A DNA stretch of 64,000 nucleotides. It comes from Limnobaculum xujianqingii. GTDB lineage: Bacteria > Pseudomonadota > Gammaproteobacteria > Enterobacterales > Enterobacteriaceae. A program made the translations under genes and the position numbers. Below, in pieces: positions 10,683-54,034 of the stretch (position 1 is its first letter; every line of letters begins with the position of its first letter). The DNA lies in assembly GCF_013394855.1 (NCBI RefSeq), contig NZ_JABMLK010000002.1, positions 124,001 through 188,000 on the forward strand, given 5' to 3'. Below the pieces are notes generated by a model. The model was not told the origin of the DNA. It did no database searches and saw only the letters and a program-made list of their open reading frames with translations.

Positions 10683-12727
10683 ATTTTTCCGGCATCAGTA
10701 CATTAAGCAATGTGTTAAGCGGTACTGGTTATCTGATGAAAACCGGTACCGGTACCGCCATATTAGACAGTGTTGGTTCCAGCCAGGGCAATATTGTCGT
10801 TAATCAGGGGACTTTGGCTTTTGTTCAGGATGGGGTATTTAATGCCGACCATCTGACAACGGCTGACGGAGCCACCACCTCTCTGGCGGGAGAATCCATT
10901 CTGAACCTGAGTGGATCGCTAACCCAAAACAGTACTTCAGTATTGAATGTTGGTGTAGGCAGCGGTCAGACCGCGATTAATGCAGATACTGCCTCACTGG
11001 GCGGCACGCTTAATATTACTGATTTCAGCGTCAATGTACCAAATAACGCCAGTGCATTAGTCAGTACTGAATTTACTGTTATTCATACTACCAACGGCAT
11101 CACCAATGACTTTTCTACTGTCGATTTGGGTGGCGCGCACAGCGATCTGGATTACCTGACGCTGGCGGGACGGGTAGTTAACGGCGTGGATTATAACGTT
11201 GGCCTTCACCTGACCTGGCAGGCCGGTGCTTTACTAGGCAACGGTATCTTTACGGTAGGCAATGCCAGCGACCTGTTTAATGTGGATCTCGTACTGGCGG
11301 ACCAAACCGGGCCTTTTACCAGCAATTGGGATGGTAAAACTCTGACTAAAGAAGGCGCAGGCACGCTGCAACTCTCCTCGGTTAATACCTATACAGGTGA
11401 CACTCTGATTAATGCAGGAACGCTGGAAACTGGCATTACTAATGCTTTTGCCACCAGCGGCAATGTAGTGGTGGCCAACGGCGCTACATTAAATCTGAAT
11501 AACCTGGCTCAACAGGCTAATAATCTGAGCGGTGATGGGCATATCACATTAGGCAGCGCAATCTTAACAGCCAATAATACAGCAAGCAGTACCTTTAATG
11601 GTGATATTAGTGGTACCGGTAGCCTGGTTAAATCAGGAAACGGGACTTTGATATTGAGTGGGGTGAATAGTTACAGCGGCGGTACCACGATCGCAGAAAA
11701 TGTTCTGGGGATAACTCAAGGAGGAGCGTTAGGTTCAGGTACGGTAATTAACCATGGTGAGCTAAACCTGTATTTTGTTACAGACAGTACATTAGCCAAC
11801 GTTATAACCGGGGCTGGCAGTATAGCAAAAAATGGTGCTGGTAATGCGATATTAACCGGTGCTGGTGCAGATTTAGGCTTAGTAAACGTTAACGAAGGAA
11901 CATTAACGCTCGCTTCCGGCGATACCATGAACATGACCGGGCTAAGGACCGCTGCCGGTGCCACAACGGCAGTCGAGGGTGATAGCTCATTAAATCTGAC
12001 TGTTTCAGGATTGACTCAGGATAGTGGTGCCACGCTGAAGATAACAAAAGGTAGCTCCTCACTTCCGGTTATTCAGTCTGGAGGGGCCGTACTGAATGGC
12101 GCCCTGAATCTTAATGGTTACACTTTTACTGCTGCTGGTTCAGCCAGCGGGCTCGACGATGAGATGTACACCCTTATTCATACTACCGGTGGAATCAGTG
12201 GTGATTTCAGCAGTATTGATTTTGGTGCAACAAGTAGTGTGGATTACCTGACTCTTGGTGGTCGGATAGTTAACGGTATCGATTATCACGTTGGCCTGGG
12301 GCTCACCTGGTTGGCGGGTCCTGCATCGGGCAATGGTTTGTTTACTCTGACTGATGCCAGCGACATGTTTAATGTGGATGTGGTGCTGGCGGATCAAACC
12401 GGGCCATTTACCAGTACCTGGGATGGTAAAACCCTGACCAAAGATGGGTTAGGTACACTGATACTTTCATCGGCCAATACTTACACTGGCGATACTCTGA
12501 TTAATGCGGGAACGCTGGAAACCGGAATCGCTAATGCCTTTGCCAGCAGCAGTAATGTGGTAGTGGGCAGTGGTGCTATGTTGAATCTGAATAGCTTTGA
12601 TCAACAGGCCAACAACCTGAGCGGCGCTGGTAGTATCAAATTAGGTAGTGCAGCCCTGACGGCGAGCAACAACATTAATAGCACTTTTAGCGGCAATATT
12701 GTTGGTGATGGAACTGAACTTTGCTAA
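10670..12727 (+). CDS. autotransporter passenger, second frame segment
   Basis: About 685 codons continuing the passenger in the -1 frame after the G-tract. The true continuation begins at about 10631, reading TQGGALGTGAVNNNDMLELNF once one G is added. It contains two repeat units, each with the DYLTLAGRVVNG(V)DYNVGL, FNVD(L/V)VLADQTGPFTS and GTLQLSSVNTYTGDT motifs or close variants. It ends in FSGNIVGDG at 12712 and then leaves register where the out-of-frame block begins (TELC and stop TAA at 12725-12727). It cannot be translated separately in any obvious way, as there is no ribosome binding site at its first ATG. Confidence 0.75.
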   Translation: MLELNFSGISTLSNVLSGTGYLMKTGTGTAILDSVGSSQGNIVVNQGTLAFVQDGVFNADHLTTADGATTSLAGESILNLSGSLTQNSTSVLNVGVGSGQTAINADTASLGGTLNITDFSVNVPNNASALVSTEFTVIHTTNGITNDFSTVDLGGAHSDLDYLTLAGRVVNGVDYNVGLHLTWQAGALLGNGIFTVGNASDLFNVDLVLADQTGPFTSNWDGKTLTKEGAGTLQLSSVNTYTGDTLINAGTLETGITNAFATSGNVVVANGATLNLNNLAQQANNLSGDGHITLGSAILTANNTASSTFNGDISGTGSLVKSGNGTLILSGVNSYSGGTTIAENVLGITQGGALGSGTVINHGELNLYFVTDSTLANVITGAGSIAKNGAGNAILTGAGADLGLVNVNEGTLTLASGDTMNMTGLRTAAGATTAVEGDSSLNLTVSGLTQDSGATLKITKGSSSLPVIQSGGAVLNGALNLNGYTFTAAGSASGLDDEMYTLIHTTGGISGDFSSIDFGATSSVDYLTLGGRIVNGIDYHVGLGLTWLAGPASGNGLFTLTDASDMFNVDVVLADQTGPFTSTWDGKTLTKDGLGTLILSSANTYTGDTLINAGTLETGIANAFASSSNVVVGSGAMLNLNSFDQQANNLSGAGSIKLGSAALTASNNINSTFSGNIVGDGTELC

Positions 12728-15700
12728 CGACAGCACGCTGAATAACCTGTTAAGCGGTAGTGGTAGTCTGACCAAAACCGGCACCGGTATTGCTACGCTG
12801 AATGGTACGGGTTCAACGCAGGGAGCCATCAATGTCAATCAGGGTACGTTAAATCTGGCTCAAAACATGGAGCTTAACGGAACCAGTCTGACCACGGCTA
12901 ACGGTGCGACCACTTCTCTTTCTCTGGATGCCCTGATTAACCTCAGTGGTGCATTAACTCAAAATAGTACAGCGACCTTAAATATTAATACCGGCGGTGC
13001 GCAACCGGCCATTACTGCGGATTCAGCATCGCTGGACGGTGCTCTGAATGTGACTGGCTTTACCACCAGTGCTCCAACCAGCGCCAGTGCATTACCGGGT
13101 ACAGAATTTACTATTATCCATACCACTAACGGCATTATTGGTGACTTTGCTGCTGTCGATTTGGGCGGAGCGACCAGCAATGTAGACTACCTGACGCTGG
13201 CTGGTCGGGTGGTTAACGGTGTGGATTACAACGTCGGCTTTGGACTGACCTGGCTGGCTGGTGATGCGCTGGGCAACGGTACTTTCACTCTGATCAATGC
13301 CGGTGACCTGTTTAATGTGGATGTGGTACTGGCAGATCAAACCGGCACCTTTGCCAGCAATTGGGATGGCAAGAGCCTGACCAAAGAAGGGCTGGGCACC
13401 CTGCAACTCTCTTCGGTGAATACCTACACCGGCAGTACCCTGATTAATGGTGGAACGCTGGAAACCGGTATCGCCAATGCGTTTGCTACCAGTAGTAATG
13501 TGGTGGTTGCCAGCGGTGGTACGCTGAATCTGAATGGTTTTAATCAGCAGGCGAATAACCTGAGTGGCGCAGGTAACATTACATTGCGTAATGCGGTACT
13601 GACCGCCAACAACAATGCTGATACCGCCTTTGACGGCGAGATCGGTGGTGCAGGCAGTCTGATTAAAACCGGTACCGGCACCCTGACCTTAAGCGGGATG
13701 AATATCTATCAGGGTGGCAGTACCCTCAGTGGCGGTACACTGGTTGCGACCAATGGTTTGGCGTTGGGAAGCGGCGACATTGAGAATAACGCGACGCTGG
13801 AGTTAAATTTTGCCAGCGACAGCGATCTGGGCAATGTACTGAGCGGTAGTCTGGTGAAAACTGGAGCCGGTGTTGCTTCGCTAAGTGCGGTTGGCTCAGC
13901 TCAGGGGGCGGTGAGCGTTAATCAGGGAACATTAAGTTTCACTCAGGATGGCATCTTTACTGCCGACAGCCTGACCACTGCCAATGGTGCTACTACCTCA
14001 CTGGCAGGGGAATCTATTTTGAACCTGAGCGGTGCATTAACCCAAAACAGCACGGCGGTGCTAAATGTTGGGGTGGGTACCGGTCAGACGGCAATTAATG
14101 CAGATACTGCTTCGCTGGGCGGTACCCTCAATATTACTGATTTCAATACTAATGTGCCGAACAGTGCCAGCGCCCTAACCAGTACTGAGTTTACCGTTAT
14201 TCATACTACCAACGGTATCACTAATGACTTTACCAGCGTTGATTTGGGTGGAGCGCAGAGCAATGTGGACTACCTGACGCTGGCGGGACGGGTGGTTAAC
14301 GGTGTAGATTACAACGTCGGCTTTGGCCTGACCTGGTTGGCAGGTACTGCGCTGGGCGACGGTACCTTTACCCTGAGTGATGCCAGCGATCTGTTTAATG
14401 TAGACGTAGTATTAGCAGACCAAACCGGGCCGTTTACCAGTAACTGGGATGGCAAAACCCTGACTAAAGCCGGACTGGGTACGCTACAACTCTCCTCGGT
14501 GAATACCTACACTGGAGACACTCTGATAAATGGCGGCACTTTGCAGACGGGTATCGCCAATGCCTTTGCTACCAGCGCTAATGTGACAGTTGCCAGCGGC
14601 GCTACGTTGGATCTGAATAATTTTAATCAGCAGGCGAATAACCTGAGTGGCGCAGGCAACATTACACTGCGTAATGCAGCACTGACAGCCAATAACAGCA
14701 GTGATACCACTTTTGACGGCGAGATCGGTGGCGCAGGCAGCCTGATTAAAACTGGCACCGGTACCCTGACCTTAAGTGGAGTGAACAGCTATCAGGGTGG
14801 TAGTACCCTCAGTGGCGGTACACTGGTTGCGACCAATGGTTTGGCATTGGGGCTCGGCGACATTGAAAACAATGCGACGCTGGAATTGAATTTTGCCAGC
14901 GATAGTGCGCTGGATAATCTACTGAGTGGCAGCGGTAGTCTGGTGAAAACCGGCAGCGGTATTGCCACCTTAAGCGCGGTTGGCTCAACTCAGGGCGCGG
15001 TGAGTGTCGATCAGGGCACATTAAGTTTCACTCAAAACGGCGGTTTTGGTGCAACCAGCCTGACCACCGCCGATGGTGCCAGCACTTCACTGGCAGGTGA
15101 CGCAGTTCTGAACCTGAGCGGTGCGCTAACGCAAAACAACAGCGCAATACTCAACGTTGTCGTGGGTAACGGTGTGACCGCAGTGAATGCAGATACCGCC
15201 TCATTAGGTGGCACTCTTAATATCACCGGTTTTAATACCACGTTGCCAGGCAGCGCCAGTGCTTTAACCAGCACGGAATTTACCGTTATTCATACCGTTA
15301 ACGGCATCACTAATGACTTTGCGCAGGTGGATTTAGGTGGTGCTGAAAGCGATGTGGATTACCTGACGTTAGCTGGCCGGGTAGTTAACGGCGTAGATTA
15401 CAACGTAGGTTTTGGCCTGACCTGGCTGGCGGGAACGTCACTGGGCAACGGTACCTTTACCTTAACTAACACCAGCGACCTGTTTAATGTCGATGTGGTA
15501 TTAGCCGATCAAACCGAGCCGTTTACCAGCATCTGGGATGGTAAGAGCCTGACCAAAGCGGGTTTGGGTACATTACAACTCTCCTCCGTCAATACCTACA
15601 CAGGTAGTACTCTGATTAATGCAGGTACTCTGCAAGCTGGCATTGCCAATGCCTTTGCCTCCAGTAGTGATGTTGCCGTAGGTAGCACCGCCACGCTGGA

Positions 15701-18700
15701 TCTGAACAACTTTAATCAACAGGCTAATAATCTCAGCGGTAGCGGTAGTATTCTGCTGGGCAGCGCAGAGTTAACGGCTAATAACAGTGCTGATACTACC
15801 TTTAGCGGTGTAATTGAGGGTACCGGCAGTCTGAGCAAAACTGGCACTGGTACATTGATTCTGAGTGGTGAAAATACTTATGAAGGTGGTAGTAGCATTA
15901 GCGCAGGTACGCTGATCGCCACCCAGGGTAATGCACTGGGGACGGGAGACATCAATAACAGCGCTACGCTGGAGCTTAACTTCCTGACGGACAGCACTCT
16001 GAGCAATCTTTTGTCAGGCAGTGGAACACTGATTAAAAGTGGAGCAGGTATAGCAACGCTAAATGCCGTTGGTTCTGAACAGGGCAATGTTGAGGTTAAC
16101 AATGGCACGCTGAATTTTGTTCAAACCGGCGCGTTCACAGCGGCAAACCTGACTACGGCGGCAAATGCCACCACTATGCTGGCAGCGAATGCCACATTAA
16201 ATCTCAGCGGTGCGTTAACACAAAATACCGATTCAATTTTAGACGTTACTCTGGGCATCGATTACCCAATTATTAGTGCAGCGACTGCTGCTCTGGATGG
16301 TTCACTCAAAGTATCAGGTATTGATACCAGCACGATGCCAGTCAATGCCAGCGACCTGAATGGCACCAATTTTACTATTATCCACACCACCGGAGGGATT
16401 AGTGGTGATTTCAGCTCTGTGGATTTAGGTGGTGCCAGCAGCAGCGTGGACTATCTGACTCTGGCTGGCCGGATAGTTAATGGTGTGGATTATAATGTGG
16501 GCCTTGGTCTGACCTGGCAGGCGGGTAACGCGTTGGGCAACGGTACCTTTACGCTAACTAACGCCGGTGACCTGTTTAATGTGGATGTGGTGTTAGCCGA
16601 TCAAACCGGGCCATTTACCAGCAACTGGGATGGCAAGAGCCTGACCAAAATGGGGCTGGGCACATTACAACTCTCTTCTGTCAATACTTATCTTGGAAGT
16701 ACCCTGATTAATGAGGGTACCTTGCAGGTGGGCATTGCCAATGCTTTTGCCATCAGTCGCGATATCACTGTAGCCAGTGGTGCCACGCTGGATCTGAACA
16801 ACTTTGACCAACGGGCTAATAACCTGAGTGGCGCAGGTAATATTCTGTTAGGCAGTGCAGTGTTAACCGCCAACAACAGTGCGGATACCACCTTTAGCGG
16901 TGTGATTGATGGTACCGGCAGTCTGAGCAAAACCGGGTCCGGTACCCTGACCTTAAGTGGTGTGAATGGCTATCAGGGGGGCAGTGATTTCCTTGATGGT
17001 AAAGTTATTGCTACTCAGGGGAGTGCGTTGGGAACCAGTGATATTGGTAGTGCAGGAACACTGGAACTGAACTTCGCAACTGACAGCACGTTGAGCAACA
17101 GGATACATGGTGGGGGTAGCCTGATAAAATCTGGTGCAGGTGTTGCTACATTGAGTGGTATTGGTTCGACCCAAGGTAACATCGATGTTAATCAGGGCAC
17201 GCTGAATTTTGCCCAGATTGGTGCATTTAACGGTTTCAATATGACAACGGCTAATGGTGCCAGCACTTCGGTTGAGGCTAACGCTTTGCTGAACCTGAGT
17301 GGTGTATTCACACAGAACGCAACGTCTACATTAAATGTCGCTGTAGGTAGCGTTCAGCCGGTGATTACCGCCGATACCGCAGCGCTGGATGGTACGTTAA
17401 ATATCACCGGATTCACCAGCGGAGCCCCAACCAGTGCCAGCGCATTAGCCAGTAGTGATTTTACGATTATCCATACCCTCAACGGTATCACCGGTGACTT
17501 TACGACAATTGATTTAGGCGGAGCTGCCAGTACTGTGGATTATCTGACCTTAGCTGGTCGGGTGGTGAACAATGCTGATTATAACGTCGGCTTTGGCCTC
17601 ACCTGGCTGGCAGGAAGTTCACTGGGCAACGGGACCTTTACCCTGGCCAATTCCGGTGACCTGTTTAATGTGGACGTGGTGTTAGCCGATCAGACCGGTC
17701 CATTTACCAGCACCTGGGACGGCAAGAGCCTGACCAAGGCAGGATTGGGTACGTTACAACTCTCTTCCGTCAACACTTACACCGGCAGTACGTTAGTGAA
17801 TGGCGGCACCTTACAGACCGGTATCGCCAATGCCTTCGCCACCAGCAGTGATGTAACGGTGGCCAGTGGAGCCACGTTGGATCTGAATGATTTCGCACAA
17901 CAGGCCAATAACCTGAGCGGCGCGGGCAGTATCTTATTAGGCAGCGCGGCGTTAACCGCTAACAATATTGCCAGTACTACCTTTAGCGGTGTGATTGATG
18001 GTGCAGGCAGCCTGAGCAAAACCGGTACCGGCACGCTGACATTAAGCGGGGCCAATACCTATCAGGGTGGCAGCACCCTCAGCGCCGGAACGCTGGTGGC
18101 AACACAGGGTAGCGCGCTGGGAACCGGCGCTATCGATAATGGCGCCACGCTGGAACTGAACTTTGCCAGCGACAGCACATTAGCCAATGTATTAAGCGGC
18201 AGCGGTAGCCTGAATAAAACCGGCACGGGTATTGCCATTTTGAGTGGCGCAGGTTCGACGCAGGGCGCCATCAACGTCAATCAGGGCACGCTGAACTTTG
18301 CCCAGAGCGGGGTATTTAACGGCAGCAGCCTGACCACTGCTAATGATGCCAGCACCTCGGTGGTGGCAGATTCCTCACTGAATCTGAGCGGGGCGCTGAC
18401 GCAAAATGCCACTTCCACCCTGAATGTGGCGGTGGGCAGCGTCCAGCCGGTGATCACCGCCGATAGTGCCGCATTAAGCGGCACGCTGAATATCACCGGA
18501 TTTACCACCGGAGCCCCAACCAGCGCCAGCGCCTTAACCAACACTGAATTTACCGTGATTCATACCACCGGAGCCGGTGGTATCAGCGGTGACTTCACGA
18601 CGATTGATTTAGGCGGGGCCGCCAGTACTGTGGATTACCTGACCTTAGCCGGTCGGGTGGTCAACAACGCAGATTATAACGTGGGCTTTGGCCTCACCTG

Positions 18701-21497
18701 GCTGGCAGGAAGCTCGCTGGGTAACGGGACCTTTACGCTGACGAACGCGGGCGATCTGTTTAATGTGGATGTGGTGTTAGCCGATCAAACCGGACCGTTT
18801 ACCAGCAGCTGGGACGGCAAGAGCCTGACCAAAGCGGGGCTGGGCACATTACAACTCTCCTCCGTCAATACCTACACCGGCAGCACGCTGGTTAATGGCG
18901 GCACCTTACAGACCGGTATCGCCAATGCCTTCGCCACCAGCAGTGATGTAATGGTGGCCAGCGGAGCGACGCTGGACCTGAATGGTTTCGCTCAACAGAC
19001 CAATAACCTGAGCGGCGCGGGCAGCATTCTGTTAGGCAGCGCGGCGTTAACCGCCAACAATATTGCCAGTACTACCTTTAGCGGTGTGATTGATGGTGCA
19101 GGCAGCCTGAGCAAAACCGGGGCCGGCACCCTGACATTAAGCGGGGCCAATACCTATCAGGGTGGCAGCACTCTCAGCGCCGGAACGCTGGTAGTAACTC
19201 AGGGTAGCGTGCTGGGAACCGGTACTATCGATAATGGTGCTACGCTGGAGCTCAACTTTGCCAGCAACAGTACATTAGCCAATGTCCTGAGCGGCAGCGG
19301 TAGCCTGAATAAAACCGGCGCGGGTATTGCCACCCTGAGTGGCGCAGGTTCGACGCAGGGTGCCATCAACGTCAATCAGGGTACGCTGAATATCACCGGA
19401 TTTACCACCGGTGCGCCAACCAGCGCCAGCGCCTTAACCAATACTGAATTTACCGTGATTCATACCACCGGAGCCGGTGGTATCAGCGGCGACTTCACGA
19501 CAATTGATTTAGGCGGGGCTGCCAGCACTGTGGATTACCTGACCTTAGCCGGTCGGGTGGTCAACAATGCAGATTACAACGTCGGCTTTGGCCTGACCTG
19601 GCTGGCAGGAAGCTCACTGGGCAACGGGACCTTTACGCTGGCAAACGCGGGTGATCTGTTTAATGTGGACGTGGTTCTGGCGGATCAAACCGGACCATTT
19701 ACCAGCAACTGGGATGGCAAGAGCCTGACCAAAGCGGGGCTGGGCACATTACAGCTCTCCTCCGTGAATACCTACACCGGCAGCACATTAGTGAATGGCG
19801 GCACTTTACAGACCGGTATCGCCAATGCCTTCGCCACCAGCAGTGATGTAATGGTGGCCAGCGGAGCCACGCTGGACCTGAATGGCTTCGCTCAACAGGC
19901 CAATAACCTGAGCGGCGCGGGCAGTATCTTATTAGGTAACGCGGCGTTAACCGCTAACAATATTGCCAGTACTACCTTTAGCGGTGTGATTGATGGTGCA
20001 GGCAGCCTGAGCAAAACCGGTACCGGCACCCTGACATTAAGCGGGGCCAATACCTATCAGGGTGGCAGCACTCTCAGCGCCGGAACGCTGGTAGCAACTC
20101 AGGGTAGCGCGCTGGGAACCGGCACTGTCGATAATGGTGCCACGCTGGAGCTCAACTTTGCCAGCAACAGTACATTAGCCAATGTCCTGAGCGGCAGCGG
20201 TAGCCTGAATAAAACCGGCGCGGGTATTGCCACCCTGAGTGGTACAGGTTCGACGCAGGGCGCCATCAACGTCAATCAGGGTACGCTGAACTTTGCCCAG
20301 AGCGGGGTATTTAACGGTAGCAGTCTGACCACCGCTAACGGTGCCAGCACTTCAGTAGTGGCAGACTCTTCACTGAATCTGAGCGGCGCGCTGACGCAAA
20401 ATGCCACTTCCACCCTGAATGTGGCGGTGGGCAGCGTCCAGCCGGTGATCACTGCCGATAGTGCCGCGTTAAGCGGTACGCTGAATATCACCGGATTTAC
20501 CACCGGTGCACCAACCAGCGCCAGCGCTTTAACCAACACCGAGTTCACCGTGATTCATACCACCGGAGCCGGTGGTATCAGCGGTGACTTTACCACGGTC
20601 AATCTGGGTGGAGCTGCCAGCACTGTGGATTATCTGACCTTAGCCGGTCGGGTAGTGAACAACGCAGACTATAACGTCGGCTTTGGCCTGACCTGGCTGG
20701 CAGGAAGCTCGCTGGGTAACGGGACCTTTACGCTGACTAACGCCAACGACCTGTTTAATGTGGACGTGGTTCTGGCGGATCAAACCGGGCCGTTTACCAG
20801 CACCTGGGACGGCAAGAGCCTGACCAAGTCAGGATTGGGCACATTACAACTGTCTTCCGTCAATGCCTTCGCCACCAGCAGTGATGTAACAGTAGCCAGC
20901 GGAGCCACGCTGGATCTGAATAACTTCGCCCAACAGGCCAATAACCTGAGCGGTGCGGGCAGTATCTTATTAGGTAACGCGGCGTTAACCGCTAACAATA
21001 TCGCCAGTACTACCTTTAGCGGTGTGATTGATGGTGCAGGCAGCCTGAGAAAAACCGGTACCGGCACCCTGACATTAAGCGGGGCCAATACCTATCAGGG
21101 TGGCAGCACTCTCAGCGCCGGAACGCTGGTAGCAACTCAGGGTAGCGCGCTGGGAACCGGCACTGTCGATAATGGTGCTACGCTGGAACTGAACTTTGCC
21201 AGCGACAGCACATTAGCCAATGTATTAAGCGGCAGCGGTAGCCTGAATAAAACCGGCGCGGGTATCGCCACCCTGAGTGGTGCTGGCTCGGCTCAGGGCG
21301 TCATCAACGTCAATCAGGGCACGCTGAACTTTGCCCAGAGCGGGGTATTTAACGGTAGCAGTCTGACCACTGCTAATGATGCCAGCACCTCGGTGGTGGC
21401 AGATTCCTCACTGAATCTGAGCGGTGCGCTGACGCAAAACGCCACTTCCACCCTGAATGTGGCGGTGGGCAGCGTTCAGCCGGTGATGGACGGGTAA
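12699..21497 (+). CDS. block of ~1.09-kb tandem adhesin repeats in a different frame from its flanks
   Basis: 2,932 codons, open throughout, holding eight copies of the FNVDVVLADQTGPF-type unit at a spacing of about 1,083-1,095 bp. Two in-frame deletions shorten units: 195 bp joining at GTLN near 19387, and 57 bp joining at SSVN near 20863. The later units (about 17.6-21.4 kb) are nearly identical in DNA, which indicates recent expansion or homogenisation. There is no plausible start; the first codons are a shadow of the upstream segment. It begins in the middle of a unit (MELNFANDSTL) and ends in the middle of another (VGSVQPV). It is out of register with both neighbouring segments, which share a frame with each other. 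Confidence 0.75.
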   Translation: MLVMELNFANDSTLNNLLSGSGSLTKTGTGIATLNGTGSTQGAINVNQGTLNLAQNMELNGTSLTTANGATTSLSLDALINLSGALTQNSTATLNINTGGAQPAITADSASLDGALNVTGFTTSAPTSASALPGTEFTIIHTTNGIIGDFAAVDLGGATSNVDYLTLAGRVVNGVDYNVGFGLTWLAGDALGNGTFTLINAGDLFNVDVVLADQTGTFASNWDGKSLTKEGLGTLQLSSVNTYTGSTLINGGTLETGIANAFATSSNVVVASGGTLNLNGFNQQANNLSGAGNITLRNAVLTANNNADTAFDGEIGGAGSLIKTGTGTLTLSGMNIYQGGSTLSGGTLVATNGLALGSGDIENNATLELNFASDSDLGNVLSGSLVKTGAGVASLSAVGSAQGAVSVNQGTLSFTQDGIFTADSLTTANGATTSLAGESILNLSGALTQNSTAVLNVGVGTGQTAINADTASLGGTLNITDFNTNVPNSASALTSTEFTVIHTTNGITNDFTSVDLGGAQSNVDYLTLAGRVVNGVDYNVGFGLTWLAGTALGDGTFTLSDASDLFNVDVVLADQTGPFTSNWDGKTLTKAGLGTLQLSSVNTYTGDTLINGGTLQTGIANAFATSANVTVASGATLDLNNFNQQANNLSGAGNITLRNAALTANNSSDTTFDGEIGGAGSLIKTGTGTLTLSGVNSYQGGSTLSGGTLVATNGLALGLGDIENNATLELNFASDSALDNLLSGSGSLVKTGSGIATLSAVGSTQGAVSVDQGTLSFTQNGGFGATSLTTADGASTSLAGDAVLNLSGALTQNNSAILNVVVGNGVTAVNADTASLGGTLNITGFNTTLPGSASALTSTEFTVIHTVNGITNDFAQVDLGGAESDVDYLTLAGRVVNGVDYNVGFGLTWLAGTSLGNGTFTLTNTSDLFNVDVVLADQTEPFTSIWDGKSLTKAGLGTLQLSSVNTYTGSTLINAGTLQAGIANAFASSSDVAVGSTATLDLNNFNQQANNLSGSGSILLGSAELTANNSADTTFSGVIEGTGSLSKTGTGTLILSGENTYEGGSSISAGTLIATQGNALGTGDINNSATLELNFLTDSTLSNLLSGSGTLIKSGAGIATLNAVGSEQGNVEVNNGTLNFVQTGAFTAANLTTAANATTMLAANATLNLSGALTQNTDSILDVTLGIDYPIISAATAALDGSLKVSGIDTSTMPVNASDLNGTNFTIIHTTGGISGDFSSVDLGGASSSVDYLTLAGRIVNGVDYNVGLGLTWQAGNALGNGTFTLTNAGDLFNVDVVLADQTGPFTSNWDGKSLTKMGLGTLQLSSVNTYLGSTLINEGTLQVGIANAFAISRDITVASGATLDLNNFDQRANNLSGAGNILLGSAVLTANNSADTTFSGVIDGTGSLSKTGSGTLTLSGVNGYQGGSDFLDGKVIATQGSALGTSDIGSAGTLELNFATDSTLSNRIHGGGSLIKSGAGVATLSGIGSTQGNIDVNQGTLNFAQIGAFNGFNMTTANGASTSVEANALLNLSGVFTQNATSTLNVAVGSVQPVITADTAALDGTLNITGFTSGAPTSASALASSDFTIIHTLNGITGDFTTIDLGGAASTVDYLTLAGRVVNNADYNVGFGLTWLAGSSLGNGTFTLANSGDLFNVDVVLADQTGPFTSTWDGKSLTKAGLGTLQLSSVNTYTGSTLVNGGTLQTGIANAFATSSDVTVASGATLDLNDFAQQANNLSGAGSILLGSAALTANNIASTTFSGVIDGAGSLSKTGTGTLTLSGANTYQGGSTLSAGTLVATQGSALGTGAIDNGATLELNFASDSTLANVLSGSGSLNKTGTGIAILSGAGSTQGAINVNQGTLNFAQSGVFNGSSLTTANDASTSVVADSSLNLSGALTQNATSTLNVAVGSVQPVITADSAALSGTLNITGFTTGAPTSASALTNTEFTVIHTTGAGGISGDFTTIDLGGAASTVDYLTLAGRVVNNADYNVGFGLTWLAGSSLGNGTFTLTNAGDLFNVDVVLADQTGPFTSSWDGKSLTKAGLGTLQLSSVNTYTGSTLVNGGTLQTGIANAFATSSDVMVASGATLDLNGFAQQTNNLSGAGSILLGSAALTANNIASTTFSGVIDGAGSLSKTGAGTLTLSGANTYQGGSTLSAGTLVVTQGSVLGTGTIDNGATLELNFASNSTLANVLSGSGSLNKTGAGIATLSGAGSTQGAINVNQGTLNITGFTTGAPTSASALTNTEFTVIHTTGAGGISGDFTTIDLGGAASTVDYLTLAGRVVNNADYNVGFGLTWLAGSSLGNGTFTLANAGDLFNVDVVLADQTGPFTSNWDGKSLTKAGLGTLQLSSVNTYTGSTLVNGGTLQTGIANAFATSSDVMVASGATLDLNGFAQQANNLSGAGSILLGNAALTANNIASTTFSGVIDGAGSLSKTGTGTLTLSGANTYQGGSTLSAGTLVATQGSALGTGTVDNGATLELNFASNSTLANVLSGSGSLNKTGAGIATLSGTGSTQGAINVNQGTLNFAQSGVFNGSSLTTANGASTSVVADSSLNLSGALTQNATSTLNVAVGSVQPVITADSAALSGTLNITGFTTGAPTSASALTNTEFTVIHTTGAGGISGDFTTVNLGGAASTVDYLTLAGRVVNNADYNVGFGLTWLAGSSLGNGTFTLTNANDLFNVDVVLADQTGPFTSTWDGKSLTKSGLGTLQLSSVNAFATSSDVTVASGATLDLNNFAQQANNLSGAGSILLGNAALTANNIASTTFSGVIDGAGSLRKTGTGTLTLSGANTYQGGSTLSAGTLVATQGSALGTGTVDNGATLELNFASDSTLANVLSGSGSLNKTGAGIATLSGAGSAQGVINVNQGTLNFAQSGVFNGSSLTTANDASTSVVADSSLNLSGALTQNATSTLNVAVGSVQPVMDG
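12704..21490 (+). repeat. 9-bp direct repeats bounding an 8,778-bp out-of-frame block
   Basis: GGTGATGGA occurs at 12704-12712 and 21482-21490. The distance is 8,778 bp, exactly 2,926 codons. Upstream the protein reads FSGNIVGDG, and downstream, after the second 9-mer, RVIKDGSGSLTLSGVSTY. Joined, they align without a gap to the same stretch of other units (FSGVIDGTGSLSKTG...), so the block splits one canonical repeat unit. Confidence 0.8.
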
Positions 21498-24400
21498 TCA
21501 AAGATGGCAGCGGCAGCCTGACTCTGAGTGGTGTTAGTACTTATACTGGCGGCAGCAGTCTTAATTCCGGCACCACCATTATTACGCAGGGTCAGGCATT
21601 GGGCAGTGGCACAGTGACTAACCATGCGACACTGGAGCTCAATTTTGCCAGCGATAGCACATTAAGCAATGTGCTAAGCAGTAGCGGTAGCCTGAATAAA
21701 ACCGGTAGCGGTGTGGCAACACTGAACGGCGTAGGATCGACTCAGGGAGCTATTAACGTCAATCAGGGCACGCTGAACTTTGCTCAAAGTGGTGACTTCA
21801 ATGGTACCAGTTTAACCACCAGTAATGGTGCGACTACTTCACTGGCTGAAGACAGTACGCTAAACCTTAGTGGGGCGCTGGTGCAGAACAGCGGTTCAAC
21901 GCTGTCAGTTCTGTTAGGTACCACTCAACCGATAATTCAGGCGGATACCTCCACGCTGAGTGGAACGCTGAAAGTCATTGGCATCGATGCTGATGCCGAT
22001 CCAACTAAGGCCAGCGACCTGCCTAATACCGAGTTCACTATCATTCATACCGCTAACGGTATCACTGGTGATTTCACCACCGTCGATCTGAACGGTGTCT
22101 CCAGCGCGGTAGATTATCTGACGGTGAGCGCCGGAAAGAGCATAGACAATAAGGATTATAATGTTGGTTATGGTCTGACCTGGTTAGCCGGTGCTACTTT
22201 AGGTAATGGTACTTTCACTTTAACCAATACCAACGATACCTTTAATGTGGATATCATACTGGCCAATCAGGCAGGATCGAGTACCGGATGGAATGGTCAG
22301 AGCCTGACGAAAGAAGGGGATGGAACTCTGATTCTGTCATCAGTTAACACCTATACCGGTGATACGCTGATTAACCACGGTACTTTACAGACTGGTATTG
22401 CCAATGCATTTGCCGATAGTGCGAACGTAGTTATTGCTAACGACGGCATTCTGAGCCTGAATGGTTTCGATCAGTCAGCCAATAATCTGAGTGGTAGTGG
22501 CGGCGTTCTGCTGGGCAATAGTGATTTGACCGTTAACAGCCTGACAGATACTACGTTTAGCGGTTCTATCAGCGGTAACGGCGGATTGATTAAATCAGGT
22601 GCAGAGACCTTCACCCTGAACGGAGTTAACTTCTACAGCGGCTCTACTACCATTAATCAGGGTCGTCTGGTGGGTACCAGAGGCGTGTCGCTTGGTCTGT
22701 CAGATATTACTAACAATGCGCAACTGGAGTTAGCATTTGCTCAGAATAGCGCACTGATAAATCAGTTAAGCGGTAACGGTGAACTGATTAAAACCGGTGC
22801 GGGTATGGCGACCTTAACCCATGCGGGTTCCTCTCAGGGAAGCGTTTCAGTGGATGAAGGAACCCTTAAGCTGGCGCAAAATGGCGCATTTAATGCCGGT
22901 GATTATCAGACAGCTGTTGGGGCTACCACCTCCATGGCTGCTGATTCATCTTTAGTCGTTGCCAATCAGTTTAAATCAGAGGGAACGCTGGATGTGATTG
23001 CCGGTAATACCTCTCCGGTTGTGACCGCAGATACGGCAGAACTTGGCAGTAGCTCGGTATTCAATCTGTCAGGCTATTCTGCACCAGAAACCACCAGCGC
23101 CAGTCAGTTAGCCAATAACCAGTTTATGGTGATTAATACCTCGGCACCGGGCAATCTGACTGGTGACTTTGCCTCATTTAACTTAGGTGGTTCTTCCAGC
23201 CCAGTCGACTATCTGTCGATGACAGCAATTCATGACAGCCAGAATTACAGCATTGGTCTGGCACTGTCCTGGTACAGTTCATATAGCGCTACACCTGAAC
23301 GTGCTCACGGTACCTTTACCTTAAGCGGTGCCAGTGAATATTTCGATCTGGATGTGGTGTTAGCGGATCAAGCTGCAAATGCCATTACCGGCTGGGATGG
23401 TAAAACTCTGACTAAAGCGGGTGAGGGTACGCTGCAACTCTCTAAAGCGAATAGTTATACCGGTGCTACTTTGATTAATGGCGGTACGTTACTGGCCGGA
23501 AAAGCCAACATTATTGCCAATAGTTCACAGCTCTCTATCGCTGAAGGTGCGACCTTTGATTTGAATAACTTCAATCAACAGGTTAATAACCTTAACGGTG
23601 GCGGTAACGTGGTATTGGGAGAGGCTGCTCTGACCACCAATCACAGCGTAGATAATACCTTCAGCGGAGTTATTAGCGGCGCGGGCAGTCTGAATAAAAC
23701 CGGCAGTGGCACCTTGCTGTTAACCGGAGATAATATCTATGCAGGCGGTACTACCATCTCCAGCGGAACCTTACAACTGGGTAATGGCGGCACCAGCGGT
23801 AGTGTTATAGGAAATATTACTGATAACGGCACATTAGTCTTCGACCGCAGTAATGACCACTTATATAACGGCGTGATTAGCGGCAGTGGTAATGTGATTC
23901 AGCAAGGTTCTGGCACGTTGTTTATCGATAATAACCAGACTTATCAGGGAACTACGGATATTAACGCGGGGGCGCTGGTTCTGATTAAAGATTCAGTGCT
24001 GACAAGCACTAATACCGTTACGGTTGCTTCAGGTGCTGAGCTGGGTGGTTATGGTGGTGTTAATGGCAGCGTGAACAATAATGGCCTGCTGGCCGTAGCG
24101 GATGCGGCAATTGGATTTGTTGATGCTCCGGCGGGTAATTTCACTATCGGCGGTAGCCTGACTAACTCCGGTGAAGTGCGCATGGCCAGCCCGGACCCCC
24201 GCAGTCAGTTAATTGTTAAGGGTAACTATATTGGTAACAATGGGTTACTCACCATAAGCACTATTCTGGCAGGCGATAACTCAACAACCGACCGACTGAT
24301 AGTGGCTGGTGATACCTCCGGAACGACGCGTCTGGTGGTGAACAATTCTGGCGGAGCCGGAGCACAAACGGTTAACGGTATTGAGGTGGTCAGCGTTGGC

Positions 24401-26652: not shown

Positions 26653-27972
26653 ATGAATACGATGTTCGATACATTTTTTGATAGTGCTCACCAAAAATCG
26701 CTTATAACCAATAAAAAACAGGGAAAAACCACCAGGTTGACTAAGTCTGCGGTGGCTTTGGCTATTACGGCGGCAACGTTATCCATGTCCGGTGTTGCTA
26801 CTGCCGCCTATACCGAACCCGGACAAATTGGTGATAAAACCAGCTGGGAAACCGGGGAATACAGTCAGGACTGGGGACTGAAAGCCATGAAAGCCTCAAG
26901 TGCCTATGCGCTGGGTTATTACGGGCAGGGTGTCAGAGTTGGCGTAATGGACTCCGGAGCGTTGCTGTTTAAACATTCAGACCTGAATGGCGATCGCTTT
27001 CATGCGGTGCACGCCTCCGGAGTATACGGGTCTTCTGGTCTACGCTATCCACAAGTGGCAACGGAAGGCCAGCAGGGTGCTTATGAAAAGGGTGAATCCT
27101 TTGATATCACCGGTGAATGGGTGTTGGGCCTTAACGATGGACACGGCACCCACGTAACCGGTACCGTCGGAGCTAACCGCGATGGTGAAGGTATGCACGG
27201 CGTCGCCTGGGGTTCCGATATTTATGTCGGTAACAACGGGGGTACTGATAGCAATAACTATGGCCCATTCCAGGATTACCAGTATTTCTATACCGGCTGG
27301 AAAGCCATGGTGGATGCGGGTGCGGAAGTCATCAATAACAGTTGGGGTACCAATATCCGTATCGTTGATCGAGGTACCACCGGTAGCGACAACGGCAATA
27401 CCGGCGTTCACCTGCCAGCGGATAATATCAACCAGTCAGAATATGAGTATTTCTATTTCAACAAAATGTACGGTAATAATCCGTCATTTGTTGATGCAGC
27501 TTATGACGCGGTGAAAGGCACCTCTGTGGTACAGATCTTTACCACCGGCAACCGTGATTTTGCTAACCCCTTTTACCGCGCCCTTTACCCCTATTTTAAT
27601 CCGGAGGCTGAACAGCACTGGATTGCAGTAGCCGGATTACAACGCGTAACCGGAACCGATAACTATGCTCTCTCCTATACCTGGAACGAAGCGGGTGATG
27701 CTAAGTGGTGGACGGTAGTGGCTCCGGGCAGTGTGATTTACTCGACGACAGTCAATTCAACCACCGGCGAAGCTGGCTGGGGGAACTCGTCCGGTACCTC
27801 TATGTCTGCCCCACACGTGGCCGGGGCGATGGGGGTGCTGATGTCCCGCTATCAGGATATGAGTGCAATTCAGGTGCGTGATGTAATGTTTACCACCGCT
27901 AACCACCTGAATCCGGACGGTAGCGTATTAAACGGCTGGACCGCAGCCGATGGCGTTCCGGATATTCGCTAG
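26653..27972 (+). CDS. S8 protease part of the broken autotransporter
   Basis: 439 residues to TAG. Subtilase motifs in order: VGVMDSG (Asp100), GHGTHVTGTVG (His164), FTTGNRD (oxyanion Asn300) and GTSMSAPHVAGAMG (Ser383). GAAGGA at 26639-26644 is a good ribosome binding site. If the stop is obeyed, a signal-peptide-bearing protease domain would be made without a translocator and would remain periplasmic (inference). The sequence following the stop (GWGIPDLDKGMYGPGQ) is the normal end of this protease domain, so the fold would be slightly truncated. Confidence 0.85.
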   Translation: MNTMFDTFFDSAHQKSLITNKKQGKTTRLTKSAVALAITAATLSMSGVATAAYTEPGQIGDKTSWETGEYSQDWGLKAMKASSAYALGYYGQGVRVGVMDSGALLFKHSDLNGDRFHAVHASGVYGSSGLRYPQVATEGQQGAYEKGESFDITGEWVLGLNDGHGTHVTGTVGANRDGEGMHGVAWGSDIYVGNNGGTDSNNYGPFQDYQYFYTGWKAMVDAGAEVINNSWGTNIRIVDRGTTGSDNGNTGVHLPADNINQSEYEYFYFNKMYGNNPSFVDAAYDAVKGTSVVQIFTTGNRDFANPFYRALYPYFNPEAEQHWIAVAGLQRVTGTDNYALSYTWNEAGDAKWWTVVAPGSVIYSTTVNSTTGEAGWGNSSGTSMSAPHVAGAMGVLMSRYQDMSAIQVRDVMFTTANHLNPDGSVLNGWTAADGVPDIR

Positions 27973-29949
27973 GGCTGGGGGATTCCGGATCTGGACAAGG
28001 GAATGTACGGCCCGGGCCAGTTCCTGAGTAAATTTGAATACAACATGGCGACCACACCGCTGGATGTCTGGAGTAACGACATCAGCCAGAAAGGGCTGGA
28101 TGCGCGTCAACAAGAGGATCTGGCGTGGCTGCAAGCCTATCAGGCCAATGGAATTGCTGCCGGTGGTGATTACGAGCTGGGAGATGACTTTGTCGTCAGT
28201 GATGGCAATAGCGATCCTACCGATCACATTATCGATCTGGCGGATGCAGAAAAATGGCGTCAGGAATACTACGACAAACGCGCCGCGGCGATTCAAGCCA
28301 AAATCGATGCTGGTCTTTATACCGCTTCGCTGGTGAAACAGGGCGCAGGCACACTGGTGATGACCGGCGATAATACCTATGCCGGAGGCACTACGGTTGA
28401 AGGCGGCACACTATATGGCTTCACCGAATCATTTGGTGATGGCAAAGTGATGGTCAATGGTGGCCAGTTTGGCGTGATTTCCAGCTATAACGACAGCTTT
28501 ACGCTAAAAGGTGAGCTGACCTCAACGGAAAGCCATAAAGCCAATATTGAAGTTAATGCTGGTGGTACCTACGTGATTAGCGCAGAAGAAAGTGTCAACG
28601 TAGGCGCGCTAACCTTTAACGATGGCTCAATGATTACCGTCGGCTCTACCCGCAGAGATGTGTTTAACGATGCCTATTTACATGGTATTACCGCAACGGG
28701 AAGTGTAACCGCAGAGACCTTAACCGATGCGAATAAAGCGATAATCACCCCGGATTACGCGTTCTTTAAGACCGATCTGGCGATTTCCGATAACACCATT
28801 ACCGCTACGTTTGGTCGTAATAGTGATGTTTCATTCGCCACCTATGGTAATCACAGCAACGGCCGGGCAATTGCGCGGGCTATTGAGGCCTCTGGCGCTA
28901 TGCCGGTGGCATCACGTTCAGTAACCGCTGCTGCTCTGAGCTCCGGCAGTCTCTACGACAAACTGTTAACCGCAACGAAAGATGAGGTTCGCAATACCTT
29001 TAATTCCCTTGGCAGCGATATGTACCTGAACACGCGCAATGCCAGCATAATTAACTCCATGACCACTACTCAAGTGGTTAAAGATCAGGCCGCAGGCACC
29101 GGTAACGGTCGCAAAGTGGAAATGGCAGATGGCTCAGCACGTCTGTGGATGACCGGTATCGGCAGTTGGTCTGAGGTGGATTACGGTCAGTCTAATATGG
29201 ATGTGGATTTCTACGCGGCTCTGGTTGGTGTGGAAGCAGATATTGCTGCCAGTACTAAGATGGGCATGTTCTTTGGTACTGGTTCTACCAAGTTTAAGGG
29301 TGGCGTGCATGGCAAAGTGGACAGCAACGATATGCACCTTGGCCTGTACGGCATTACCAACTTCGCTGAAGTCGCTTCACTGAGTTATGGTTTGATGTAC
29401 ACCCATCAGGATGCGGATGCAAAACGCAACTTAGTGGTGGTGAACGAGATTGGTAGCAACTCGGTTTCTGCGGATGCCGATATTGCCCAGATTTTCACTG
29501 AAGCCGCTTATCTGGGGCTGAATACCAGTAGTTACTCTATCGAACCTCATCTGGGCTTTAGCTGGATGCATATCAAATCGGATGATTACACTGAAACCGT
29601 TAGTGATATGGCATTCAAAACCAAAGTTGACGATCAGGATCTGCTGGTAACCACGTTCGGCGTTCGCGGCGGCCTGCCATTCACCGTTGGTGAGCTTCCA
29701 ATGACGGTGAAGGCCGATATCTATGGCATGCACTTTGCCGGAGATAACACTGCCGAAGCCACCATGTATCTTGCAGATACTGGTGCGGCAAACATCAAGG
29801 GCGGTAAGCTTTCGACTATGGCGGGAGCAGCTCTCGGTGTTGAAGCGCAAATTACCAAATCTGCCTCATTCGGCGTGTCATATACCGGAGCCTATAACAG
29901 CGATATCACCTCAAATGGTGTATACGCTAAGTTGAAAATTGACTTCTAA
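27973..29949 (+). CDS. linker and translocator barrel of the broken protease autotransporter
   Basis: The frame continues directly from the TAG; the first ATG is 28003 with no ribosome binding site. Residues just after the stop complete the S8 domain, then a helical linker (EKWRQEYYDKRAAAIQAKI), a PATR-type repeat, and from about 29130 the beta-barrel (ARLWMTGIGSWSEVDYG, GVEADIAASTKMGMFFGTG, YAKLKIDF). The terminal Phe fits BAM-dependent insertion. A 12-bp hairpin follows at 29968-29996. Confidence 0.8.
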   Translation, partial: GWGIPDLDKGMYGPGQFLSKFEYNMATTPLDVWSNDISQKGLDARQQEDLAWLQAYQANGIAAGGDYELGDDFVVSDGNSDPTDHIIDLADAEKWRQEYYDKRAAAIQAKIDAGLYTASLVKQGAGTLVMTGDNTYAGGTTVEGGTLYGFTESFGDGKVMVNGGQFGVISSYNDSFTLKGELTSTESHKANIEVNAGGTYVISAEESVNVGALTFNDGSMITVGSTRRDVFNDAYLHGITATGSVTAETLTDANKAIITPDYAFFKTDLAISDNTITATFGRNSDVSFATYGNHSNGRAIARAIEASGAMPVASRSVTAAALSSGSLYDKLLTATKDEVRNTFNSLGSDMYLNTRNASIINSMTTTQVVKDQAAGTGNGRKVEMADGSARLWMTGIGSWSEVDYGQSNMDVDFYAALVGVEADIAASTKMGMFFGTGSTKFKGGVHGKVDSNDMHLGLYGITNFAEVASLSYGLMYTHQDADAKRNLVVVNEIGSNSVSADADIAQIFTEAAYLGLNTSSYSIEPHLGFSWMHIKSDDYTETVSDMAFKTKVDDQDLLVTTFGVRGGLPFTVGELPMTVKADIYGMHFAGDNTAEATMYLADTGAANIKGGKLSTMAGAALGVEAQITKSASFGVSYTGAYNSDITSNGVYAKLKIDF

Positions 29950-29996: not shown

Positions 29997-30095
29997 GATC
30001 GACTTAATAGCCTTGTCAGGTGAGTTTCGATAATTAAATAGTTTACTTTAGATGGATGACCAACGCCTGATGGTTTGGTCTTGCATTTTAAACTA

Positions 30096-30255
30096 GCTAA
30101 TCGTCGGGAGGGGCTGCCGTTGGGGTCGTAGCAGCTTTAGCTGCCGGAGTGCCCCTAGGCAGACCAGGCCCGACACGCACCGAAGCTAAGTACAAGCTGT
30201 CTTCCGGTCGAGCACAACGCCAATATAATCACATTAGATTTTACGACCGGAATAT
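30096..30255 (+). repeat. structured dispersed repeat family 2, copy A
   Basis: This ~160-bp element is non-coding and shared with 53828-53986. Nested helices: GTCGGG 30103-30108 with CCCGAC 30169-30174; CTGCC 30114-30118 with GGCAG 30158-30162; GGGG 30122-30125 with CCCC 30152-30155; hairpin GCAGC-TTTA-GCTGC 30131-30144. A separate 3' helix is TTCCGGTCG 30202-30210 with CGACCGGAA 30244-30252. Copy B differs in four of these helices but with compensating changes. It lies between the protease autotransporter and the convergent LysR gene. It does not match any RNA class I can name. Confidence 0.8.
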
Positions 30256-30284
30256 CCACAAATGCTAATTTACCGAATTAAGCC

Positions 30285-53084: not shown

Positions 53085-53750
53085 CTATTTCGGTCTATTT
53101 CCCAATTTCTTGATTTCTGCCAGACCTATCAGTGAGTGCATCTGTGTGATAGCAATCGTATTTAACTGTGACAGCCGTTCTTGTGCTGTCAGTCCCTGAT
53201 GAATGAAGACAGAGTTGATGCTCTCCAGATTGGATAGAATAACTAACTGTTCAAGTGTAGCGAAGTCTCGCATATTGCCGGATTGTTCAGGATTTGTTTG
53301 TCTCCATTGGGCGGCTGTCATGCCGAACAGAGCAACATTAAGTAAATCGGCTTCGCTGGCGTAGACGGTAACCATCTGTGCTTTGGTTAGCTGTGGTGGG
53401 ATTAATCGCTCTTTGATGGCGTCAGTGTGAATGCGGTAATTGACCTTTGCCAGTGTACGTTGAAAACTCCATTCCAGTGAAATCGTTCGAGCTTCTTCAT
53501 CTTTAAGCCTCTGAAATTCCTTGATCAGATACAATTTGAATTCTGGGCTGAGCCATGAACCGAACTCAAAAGCGATATCTCGGTGGGCGTAAGTGCCACC
53601 GTAGCGTCCTGCTTTAGCGTTTAAGCCAATTGCGCCTGTAACATCGCACCACTTTTTTGCTGAGAGGTAGAAACTGTTTCGGCCAGCTTCATTTTTAATT
53701 CCCCCGAATTCGGGGGAATTAAAATCAGGATTGTTGATTTTTTCCCACAC
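53085..53750 (-). pseudogene. KilA-N domain phage-type protein, 5'-truncated
   Basis: The 221-codon frame starts at a GTG (53750) in the middle of a KilA-N domain (WEKINNPDFNSPEFGGIKNEAGRN, YGGTYAHRDIAFEFGSWLSPEFKLYLIKEFQRLK). The frame continues upstream for a few family-like codons (TVLFLGV) to a TGA at about 53772, so the first ~50 residues of the domain are missing. There is no ribosome binding site. KilA-N proteins are typical of phages and mobile islands. Just beyond its 5' end lies structured repeat family 2 copy B. It reads as a remnant of a mobile element that settled between narK and narG. Confidence 0.75.
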
Positions 53751-53827
53751 GCCTAAAAACAGTACCGTGTCCTTTCACCCTACGGTCAGCGTTAGTGCTG
53801 TTCTAACTGGTTTTATGTCTTAGGATA

Positions 53828-53986
53828 GCTCATCGTTGGGAGGGACGGGTGTTGGGGTCGACTTGGCGTAAGCCAACGAAGCGCCCCTAACCCGGCCAGG
53901 CCCAACGCACTCTGTAGTTGAGTACAGATGGTTTACCGACCGTTCCTGGTGCAGATATAAGCACCATGCTTTTACGGTCGGAATAT
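53828..53986 (+). repeat. structured dispersed repeat family 2, copy B
   Basis: This is the second copy of the element at 30096-30255, of almost the same length. Helices: GTTGGG 53835-53840 with CCCAAC 53901-53906; CGGGT 53846-53850 with ACCCG 53890-53894; GGGG 53854-53857 with CCCC 53884-53887; hairpin TTGGC-GTAA-GCCAA 53863-53876; CCGACCG 53936-53942 with CGGTCGG 53975-53981. An inner hairpin TGGTGC/GCACCA (53947-53952/53961-53966) lies within the last helix. Unpaired parts such as GTTGGGGTCG and GGCCAGGCCC-like linkers are conserved with copy A. Confidence 0.8.
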
Positions 53987-54034
53987 TTTCAGGTGCTGAT
54001 TATTTAGATTCTTAATAGCTCCTCCACTAATCGA

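Follow-up and report, generated by a model that had tools for sequence, protein, structure and literature searches.

The closest described relatives of the element analysed here are the YPAL/RU-2 repeats. YPAL units of about 168 bp (167–168 bp) are known from both filled and empty sites, are bordered by duplications of 3–26 bp and occupy targets that span or adjoin a dyad symmetry, with inserts known from Yersinia and Erwinia carotovora (PMC2229807). They are abundant across Yersinia, Y. ruckeri excepted (PMC2847712), and a YPAL* class of 130–136 bp with a complex consensus structure has been described in Y. pestis (PMC2267715); in PMC5193452, YPAL figures only as a plotted annotation. According to a review, YPAL possibly affects the stability of upstream transcripts, and the movement of YPAL-type repeats has been called an open question (PMC2229807). 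ERIC is a second small repeat, of 127 bp with TA at its termini (PMC2229807, PMC2759123).

The window, by which we mean the whole 64-kb stretch of Limnobaculum xujianqingii DNA analysed here, holds two copies of an element that resembles YPAL/RU-2 in both of its ends, in its variable duplications at or near dyad symmetry and in its stable fold (PMC2759123, PMC2229807, PMC2847712), but differs in an unrelated inside, in a length of about 130 or about 230–246 bp against 167–168 bp, and in occurring in many more genera than the published hosts. The two copies and their parts are as follows.

30050..30284, + strand: copy 1, whole element (approximate limits, from 41 copies aligned with their flanks)
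30093..30258, + strand: core of copy 1, the covarying fold (model R1, E 1.7e-43)
30103..30174, + strand: helix 1 of copy 1, GTCGGG (30103-30108) with CCCGAC (30169-30174)
30114..30162, + strand: helix 2 of copy 1, CTGCC (30114-30118) with GGCAG (30158-30162)
30131..30144, + strand: apical hairpin of copy 1, GCAGC (30131-30135) with GCTGC (30140-30144)
30202..30252, + strand: 3' helix of copy 1, TTCCGGTCG (30202-30210) with CGACCGGAA (30244-30252)
53782..54020, + strand: copy 2, whole element (approximate limits, from copies aligned with their flanks)
53825..53989, + strand: core of copy 2, the covarying fold (model R1, E 4.4e-38)

The earlier note had singled out two look-alike stretches, and both are present where it placed them; their cores align with a one-base difference in length (166 nt in copy 1 and 165 nt in copy 2). 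The four helix changes that it read between them are likewise all in the sequence: from copy 1 to copy 2, GTCGGG/CCCGAC becomes GTTGGG/CCCAAC, CTGCC/GGCAG becomes CGGGT/ACCCG, GCAGC/GCTGC becomes TTGGC/GCCAA and CCGGTCG/CGACCGG becomes CCGACCG/CGGTCGG. Its length of about 160 bp is right for the core but not for the whole element, which measures about 230–246 bp in Limnobaculum copies with both ends visible and about 130 bp (the short form) in most relatives. The left end of copy 1 reads AGATGGATGACCAAC, and its right end is worn away next to a LysR-type gene (flank alignment of 41 copies); copy 2 has a narK-like gene on one side and a narG-like gene on the other. Elsewhere in the window we observed a TwoAYGGAY RNA (RF01731; 38672-38745, + strand; score 45.8 against a gathering score of 43), a subtilase-domain ORF (26653-27972, + strand) and an autotransporter beta-domain ORF (28003-29949, + strand) in the same frame with a stop between them, and, at about 9450-22000, long tandem repeats with a unit of about 1,090 bp and up to 11 copies, of the sort found in genes for large repetitive surface proteins.

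The element is dispersed at high copy number and shared among related genera, with conserved ends round a covarying core. Searches of the own genome covered 4.76 Mb in 3 contigs. There, blastn with copy 1 gave at least 51 rows, copy 2 not being among the matches listed, while model R1, built from 41 own-genome copies including both window copies, gave at least 150 matches, fragments counted, the weakest listed having an E value of 1.1e-13; only two of them fall in the window, and they are the two cores on which the model was partly trained. R1 matches occur in all four Limnobaculum genomes (125, 107 and 138 in the other three), in 9 of 99 sampled family genomes and, under stricter filters, in 3 of 394 genomes of an order sample; very similar copies stand in L. 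allomyrinae records (L132, L161). A second model, R2, was built from 44 of 47 short copies (3 were dropped) with no Limnobaculum in its training set. It matches 37 of 295 sampled family genomes and 21 of 154 genera. Since R2 also matches both window copies (copy 1 at 30081-30210, E 8.2e-12; copy 2 at 53815-53943, E 8.3e-9), the short and long forms belong to one family.

An exact-pattern scan gave at least 120 stretches, and 79 of the 80 named rows come from Yersinia, Serratia, Hafnia, Leminorella, Pragia, Budvicia, Brenneria, Edaphovirga, Symbiopectobacterium and Limnobaculum; the one other row, from Pseudonocardia (L123), looks like a chance match and was removed from every count. The 115 pattern copies yielded 111 distinct ones for pair counts, 114 for flank repeats and, for gene context, 88 that had 900 nt of sequence on either side. 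Queried with one short-form copy (L145), 50,697 phage records and an E. coli collection gave no match; the search has no bearing on the three YPAL matches that have been counted in E. coli (PMC2847712, Table 3). Plasmid matches were those in Y. frederiksenii (NZ_MT039226) and S. proteamaculans (NZ_MT039221), and a 41-nt match to a Streptomyces plasmid was read as chance. Viral contigs scanned with one protein of the window gave no match.

Kinship with YPAL shows at the ends, which in relatives read about CAGACTGCTGACAAAG ... CTTTGTCATCAACCTC. The end consensus of the short family is identical to that of RU-2 (PMC2759123, Table 1b) at 16 of 18 and 14 of 18 nt, a match reached by shuffled ends in 0 and 2 of 100000 trials, and some Limnobaculum copies have a right end identical over 18–19 nt to the left end of RU-2. 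The inside is another matter: among the blastn matches listed against RU-2 there were only terminal ones of 15–23 nt, and we rejected the 168-bp YPAL/RU-2 proper as an identity on the ground of this unrelated inside. The element is rather of the YPAL kind with a different core, perhaps of the YPAL* class, which the short form resembles in its length and complex structure (PMC2267715); equating the short form with YPAL* is a guess. In some own copies (e.g., L006, L017 and L067) an end like the left end of RU-2 lies to the right of the core, opposite to its place in the short family, and ends and core seem to have been swapped relative to each other. ERIC/RU-1 is similarly small, structured, intergenic and enterobacterial, and in Yersinia it lies at gene 3' ends, but it was rejected because its TA termini, as described, are absent here: the 31 clean copies of one relative genome (G589) start with CAGACTG and end with CTC, a few having changed last bases, and duplicate a hairpin. 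An attC reading was provisionally set aside on the basis of attC motifs. In Rfam 15 no family reached its gathering score for either stretch, and a match of copy 1 to a CRISPR-repeat family (E 2.9) was dismissed as chance. The earlier note found no match among the repeats and riboswitches that it could name. The absence of an Rfam match holds for these stretches, but at the level of kind the element does match a known repeat, recognisable by its YPAL/RU-2 ends and insertion habit. Among the papers listed for 2005–2009 and from 2010 onward, with most journals outside the coverage, none deals with YPAL copies in Limnobaculum, and no title among the papers naming Limnobaculum concerns repeats; this is weak evidence of novelty.

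We are nearly certain that this is a mobile element of the YPAL kind. The fuller reading that we favour, with a probability of roughly 0.75, is that of a non-autonomous element of this kind, mobilised in trans, which duplicates a hairpin on insertion and whose fold is kept through movement.

The insertion habit is recorded in the flanks. Among 114 pattern-scan copies, 37 have flanks that share a direct repeat with a score of at least 28, compared with 1 such case in 1140 controls with re-paired flanks, and 34 of the 37 repeats fold at -4 kcal/mol or below. In the relative genome G589, a search allowing 3 mismatches finds 130 left ends and 127 right ends, and the 31 copies analysed there (the 11 best model matches and 20 with a perfect left end) are all flanked on both sides by a palindrome in direct repeat, 16–30 bp long and mostly terminator-like. 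The length of the duplication is that of the palindrome to within 2 nt in 30 of the 31 (r = 0.98); these values come from a refit starting at the element's edge, the first palindrome fit having given 27 of 31 and r = 0.56 with one failed fit. So tight a match is a feature of this one genome; in a mixed set from other genera, the two ends of the duplication both fall no more than 2 nt from those of a palindrome in 18 of 27 cases, and r is 0.32. Twenty-eight G589 copies are 131 nt long and nearly identical (median of 2 pairwise differences, maximum 8), which indicates recent movement. Variable duplications of YPAL near dyad symmetry were known already (PMC2229807); the match in length to the palindrome sharpens that description.

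Within a pair the two palindromes may differ, as in L374 (8 of 30 positions) and L412 (4 of 22), mostly in the loop, and in L412 one flanking hairpin has a loop that is the reverse complement of the other's, which looks as though a hairpin had been inverted. The two hairpins also differ in what follows them: the next 8 nt contain on average 3.9 T after the right hairpin and 1.0 after the left one, where the element starts. Group IIC introns, structured and mobile too, likewise insert at terminator hairpins, but they are far longer, encode a reverse transcriptase and are not known to duplicate a hairpin. A narrow literature search on hairpin targets found no paper.

In Limnobaculum itself duplications are rare. 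Its score test picked out 19 of 103 rows, compared with 30 of 1030 in the control, where the 103 rows stand for 70 distinct copies and include repeats of one copy as well as a tandem array that is also in the control. Clear duplications flank L027 and L033 in the own genome and L080, L082, L091 and L093 in other genomes, two more (L077, L078) were recognised by eye, and in the flanks of window copies 1 and 2 we saw no clear one. In G002 (C1:1250484-1251789) five element copies follow each other 285 bp apart with the intervening terminator-like hairpin repeated too, an array that recombination between duplicated hairpins could have produced.

The duplications bear on the alternative of an ordinary MITE, moved by the DDE-type transposase of an insertion sequence through its terminal inverted repeats, for which hairpins would be a preferred target and the fold irrelevant to movement. 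Short imperfect inverted ends with target duplications are typical of MITEs (PMC2229807), and similar ends do enclose two very different insides, that of the present element and that of RU-2. The G589 duplications of 16–30 bp, however, track the palindrome, unlike a fixed stagger, and no insertion sequence with such ends was found in the own genome or among the G589 ends listed (100 of the 130 left and 100 of the 127 right). Six end-like matches away from the listed copies in the own genome have no left end within 3 kb. Fourteen G589 regions were examined; three show single unpaired ends (L393, L394, L397) and one a wide end pair (L386), the sole such pair examined there, which encloses genes that we take to be the host-like proC, yggT, rdgB and hemW. 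No mobilising gene was found in these searches. On this balance we regard an ordinary MITE as rather unlikely, and return to a YPAL-kind element that is moved in trans and duplicates its target hairpin.

By itself, the fold stability of either copy is modest: RNA z-scores are -1.44 (copy 1) and -2.81 (copy 2) for the 5' part and -2.50 and -3.25 for the 3' part, and copy 1 folded as DNA scores -3.60. The case for the fold rests on the comparison of many copies. Across 31 pairs in 41 own-genome copies, 96.5% of 1270 cells hold standard pairs (shuffled mean 86.5), falling to 29.2–47.1% when one strand is slid by 1–3 columns. Fourteen pairs are changed on both sides against 9.6 in shuffles, as are 161 cells against 52.9, while the 22 further pair types are no excess (shuffled mean 24.1; 486 of 500 shuffles reach 22). 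Covariation is thus real, as the earlier note had proposed, but its count of about ten paired changes that keep the fold overclaims if taken as ten independent events between the window copies. On a tree of the unpaired columns, the change of the apical hairpin, which has two alleles within Limnobaculum, maps to a single event by parsimony, so that not all changes are independent; the five pairs of the CTGCC helix (helix 2), the most variable helix of the fold, require 13–43 changes each, numbers inflated by recombination between copies. The outer pairs of helix 1 are the weakest of the fold, two of them being frequently unpaired in a larger set of 141 copies (122 distinct full-length own-genome copies and 19 from the rest of the genus).

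Mismatch types can point to the strand that folds, since a transition in a G-C pair yields either G-U or A-C. The 111 distinct copies of the pattern scan, of which two come from Limnobaculum, have 1660 cells, with 1470 Watson-Crick pairs, 149 G-U and 5 A-C. This excess of G-U suggests that it is the plus strand that folds in lineages where the element propagates; it is confined to six columns of one helix and partly reflects common descent, and the search pattern itself fixes several of the remaining pairs. The 141 Limnobaculum copies give 4112 Watson-Crick pairs, 29 G-U, 23 A-C and 204 others in 4368 cells, or 23 G-U against 22 A-C once helix 1 is counted without its three outer pairs, an equality which suggests that resident copies drift with indifference to strand. 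At some stage of the element's life a folded single strand does matter; that the fold has a role in movement is a proposition to which we give even odds.

The arms could instead have stayed complementary through a DNA process, either arm copying in repair or the exchange of whole blocks, with no selection on the fold. The single block-like change of the apical hairpin and the equal G-U and A-C counts in Limnobaculum would fit such a process, and the reverse-complementary loops of L412 imply that such hairpins can invert. Arm copying, on the other hand, would not yield the bias of common G-U and rare A-C seen in relatives, and the pairs of helix 2 vary separately, even allowing for the inflation of their change counts by recombination. 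We therefore consider a purely DNA-level origin of the complementarity improbable and retain selection on the fold of a YPAL-kind element.

Two further observations concern the inside of the element. The internal loop beside helix 3 (alignment A2, columns 28–30 and 62–65) appears by eye to covary without Watson-Crick pairing, GTT going with CTA and GTG with GTA, as linkage or a non-canonical motif would have it. Some copies (L034, L036, L037, L040, L242, L244, L253 and L257) have four hairpins inserted as a block at the apex, and a 17-nt piece of this block recurs in the own genome at 31 places with up to 2 mismatches and at 42 places with up to 3, against 6 for a reversed control. Budvicia and Leminorella copies (L169, L170, L177) show, by eye, a similar hairpin block in the other arm and in opposite orientation, and this multi-hairpin block may be a nested element.

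The element settles at the 3' ends of genes in either orientation. The 122 own copies lie in 67 convergent, 24 antisense, 18 sense and 1 divergent contexts, with 8 overlapping a called ORF and 4 at an edge, compared with 5 convergent and 7 divergent among the element-free gaps, of which these short loci have only 26. The 88 pattern-scan copies repeat the preference (50 convergent, 18 sense, 13 antisense, 3 divergent, 4 overlapping) against 275 control gaps (34 convergent, 85 sense, 60 antisense, 96 divergent). A 2006 study in J Bacteriol reportedly ties YPAL, in its abstract, to terminators and transcript levels. Both window sites vary between species. The copy-1 site of G003 holds an element with different helix alleles and a partial 3' module, and that of G001 holds 536 nt of unrelated DNA and is no clean empty site; at the copy-2 site of G003 the element is reversed. 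Among the flank matches listed there were none for G002 at either site and none for G001 at the copy-2 site. A KilA-N-domain ORF (53085-53750, - strand) between the narK-like and narG-like genes of the window is absent at the G003 site. Of the two identities floated in the earlier note, a small mobile structured element is borne out by the at least 150 own-genome matches and by this variation in occupancy, alleles or orientation, whereas a repeated ncRNA is not supported, given the free orientation to neighbouring genes and the near-equal G-U and A-C counts of Limnobaculum. A module useful to the host, whose folded RNA in 3'-UTRs or as an ncRNA protects or processes the carrier mRNAs and is kept by host selection, would suit the position 3' of genes, the folded plus strand indicated by 149 G-U against 5 A-C in relatives and the possible influence of YPAL on upstream transcript stability (PMC2229807), but it is very improbable given own copies that lie antisense (24) more often than sense (18) and mostly in convergent gaps (67), G-U and A-C cells that are equal in Limnobaculum, and sites that differ between species.

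We propose the following course for the insertion of this non-autonomous YPAL-kind element. An enzyme supplied in trans would recognise both the element and a target hairpin, the element would be joined at the base of that hairpin, and gap repair would then duplicate it, leaving a first hairpin that would have no T-run and a second that would retain it. Transcription of the upstream gene would consequently enter the element. The fold would be kept because the copies able to fold are those that are moved, while resident copies drift. A more specific possibility, for which we claim no great confidence, is a hairpin-for-hairpin transposition, in which the enzyme would pick its target by shape and cut at the base, and would pick its cargo by the compensated fold, perhaps as single-stranded DNA or RNA. 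If this were true, the duplication would be one hairpin of any sequence or length, and the route would be guided by structure, unlike that of fixed-stagger transposases.

G589, where about 130 ends match, the sampled copies are nearly identical and the duplications are clean, renders the movement of such repeats testable. The covarying fold points to the parts worth changing, and the rule of one whole hairpin limits the possible chemistry. If the first hairpin does lose its T-run upon insertion, many genes in enterobacteria would thereby acquire a 3' end that folds.
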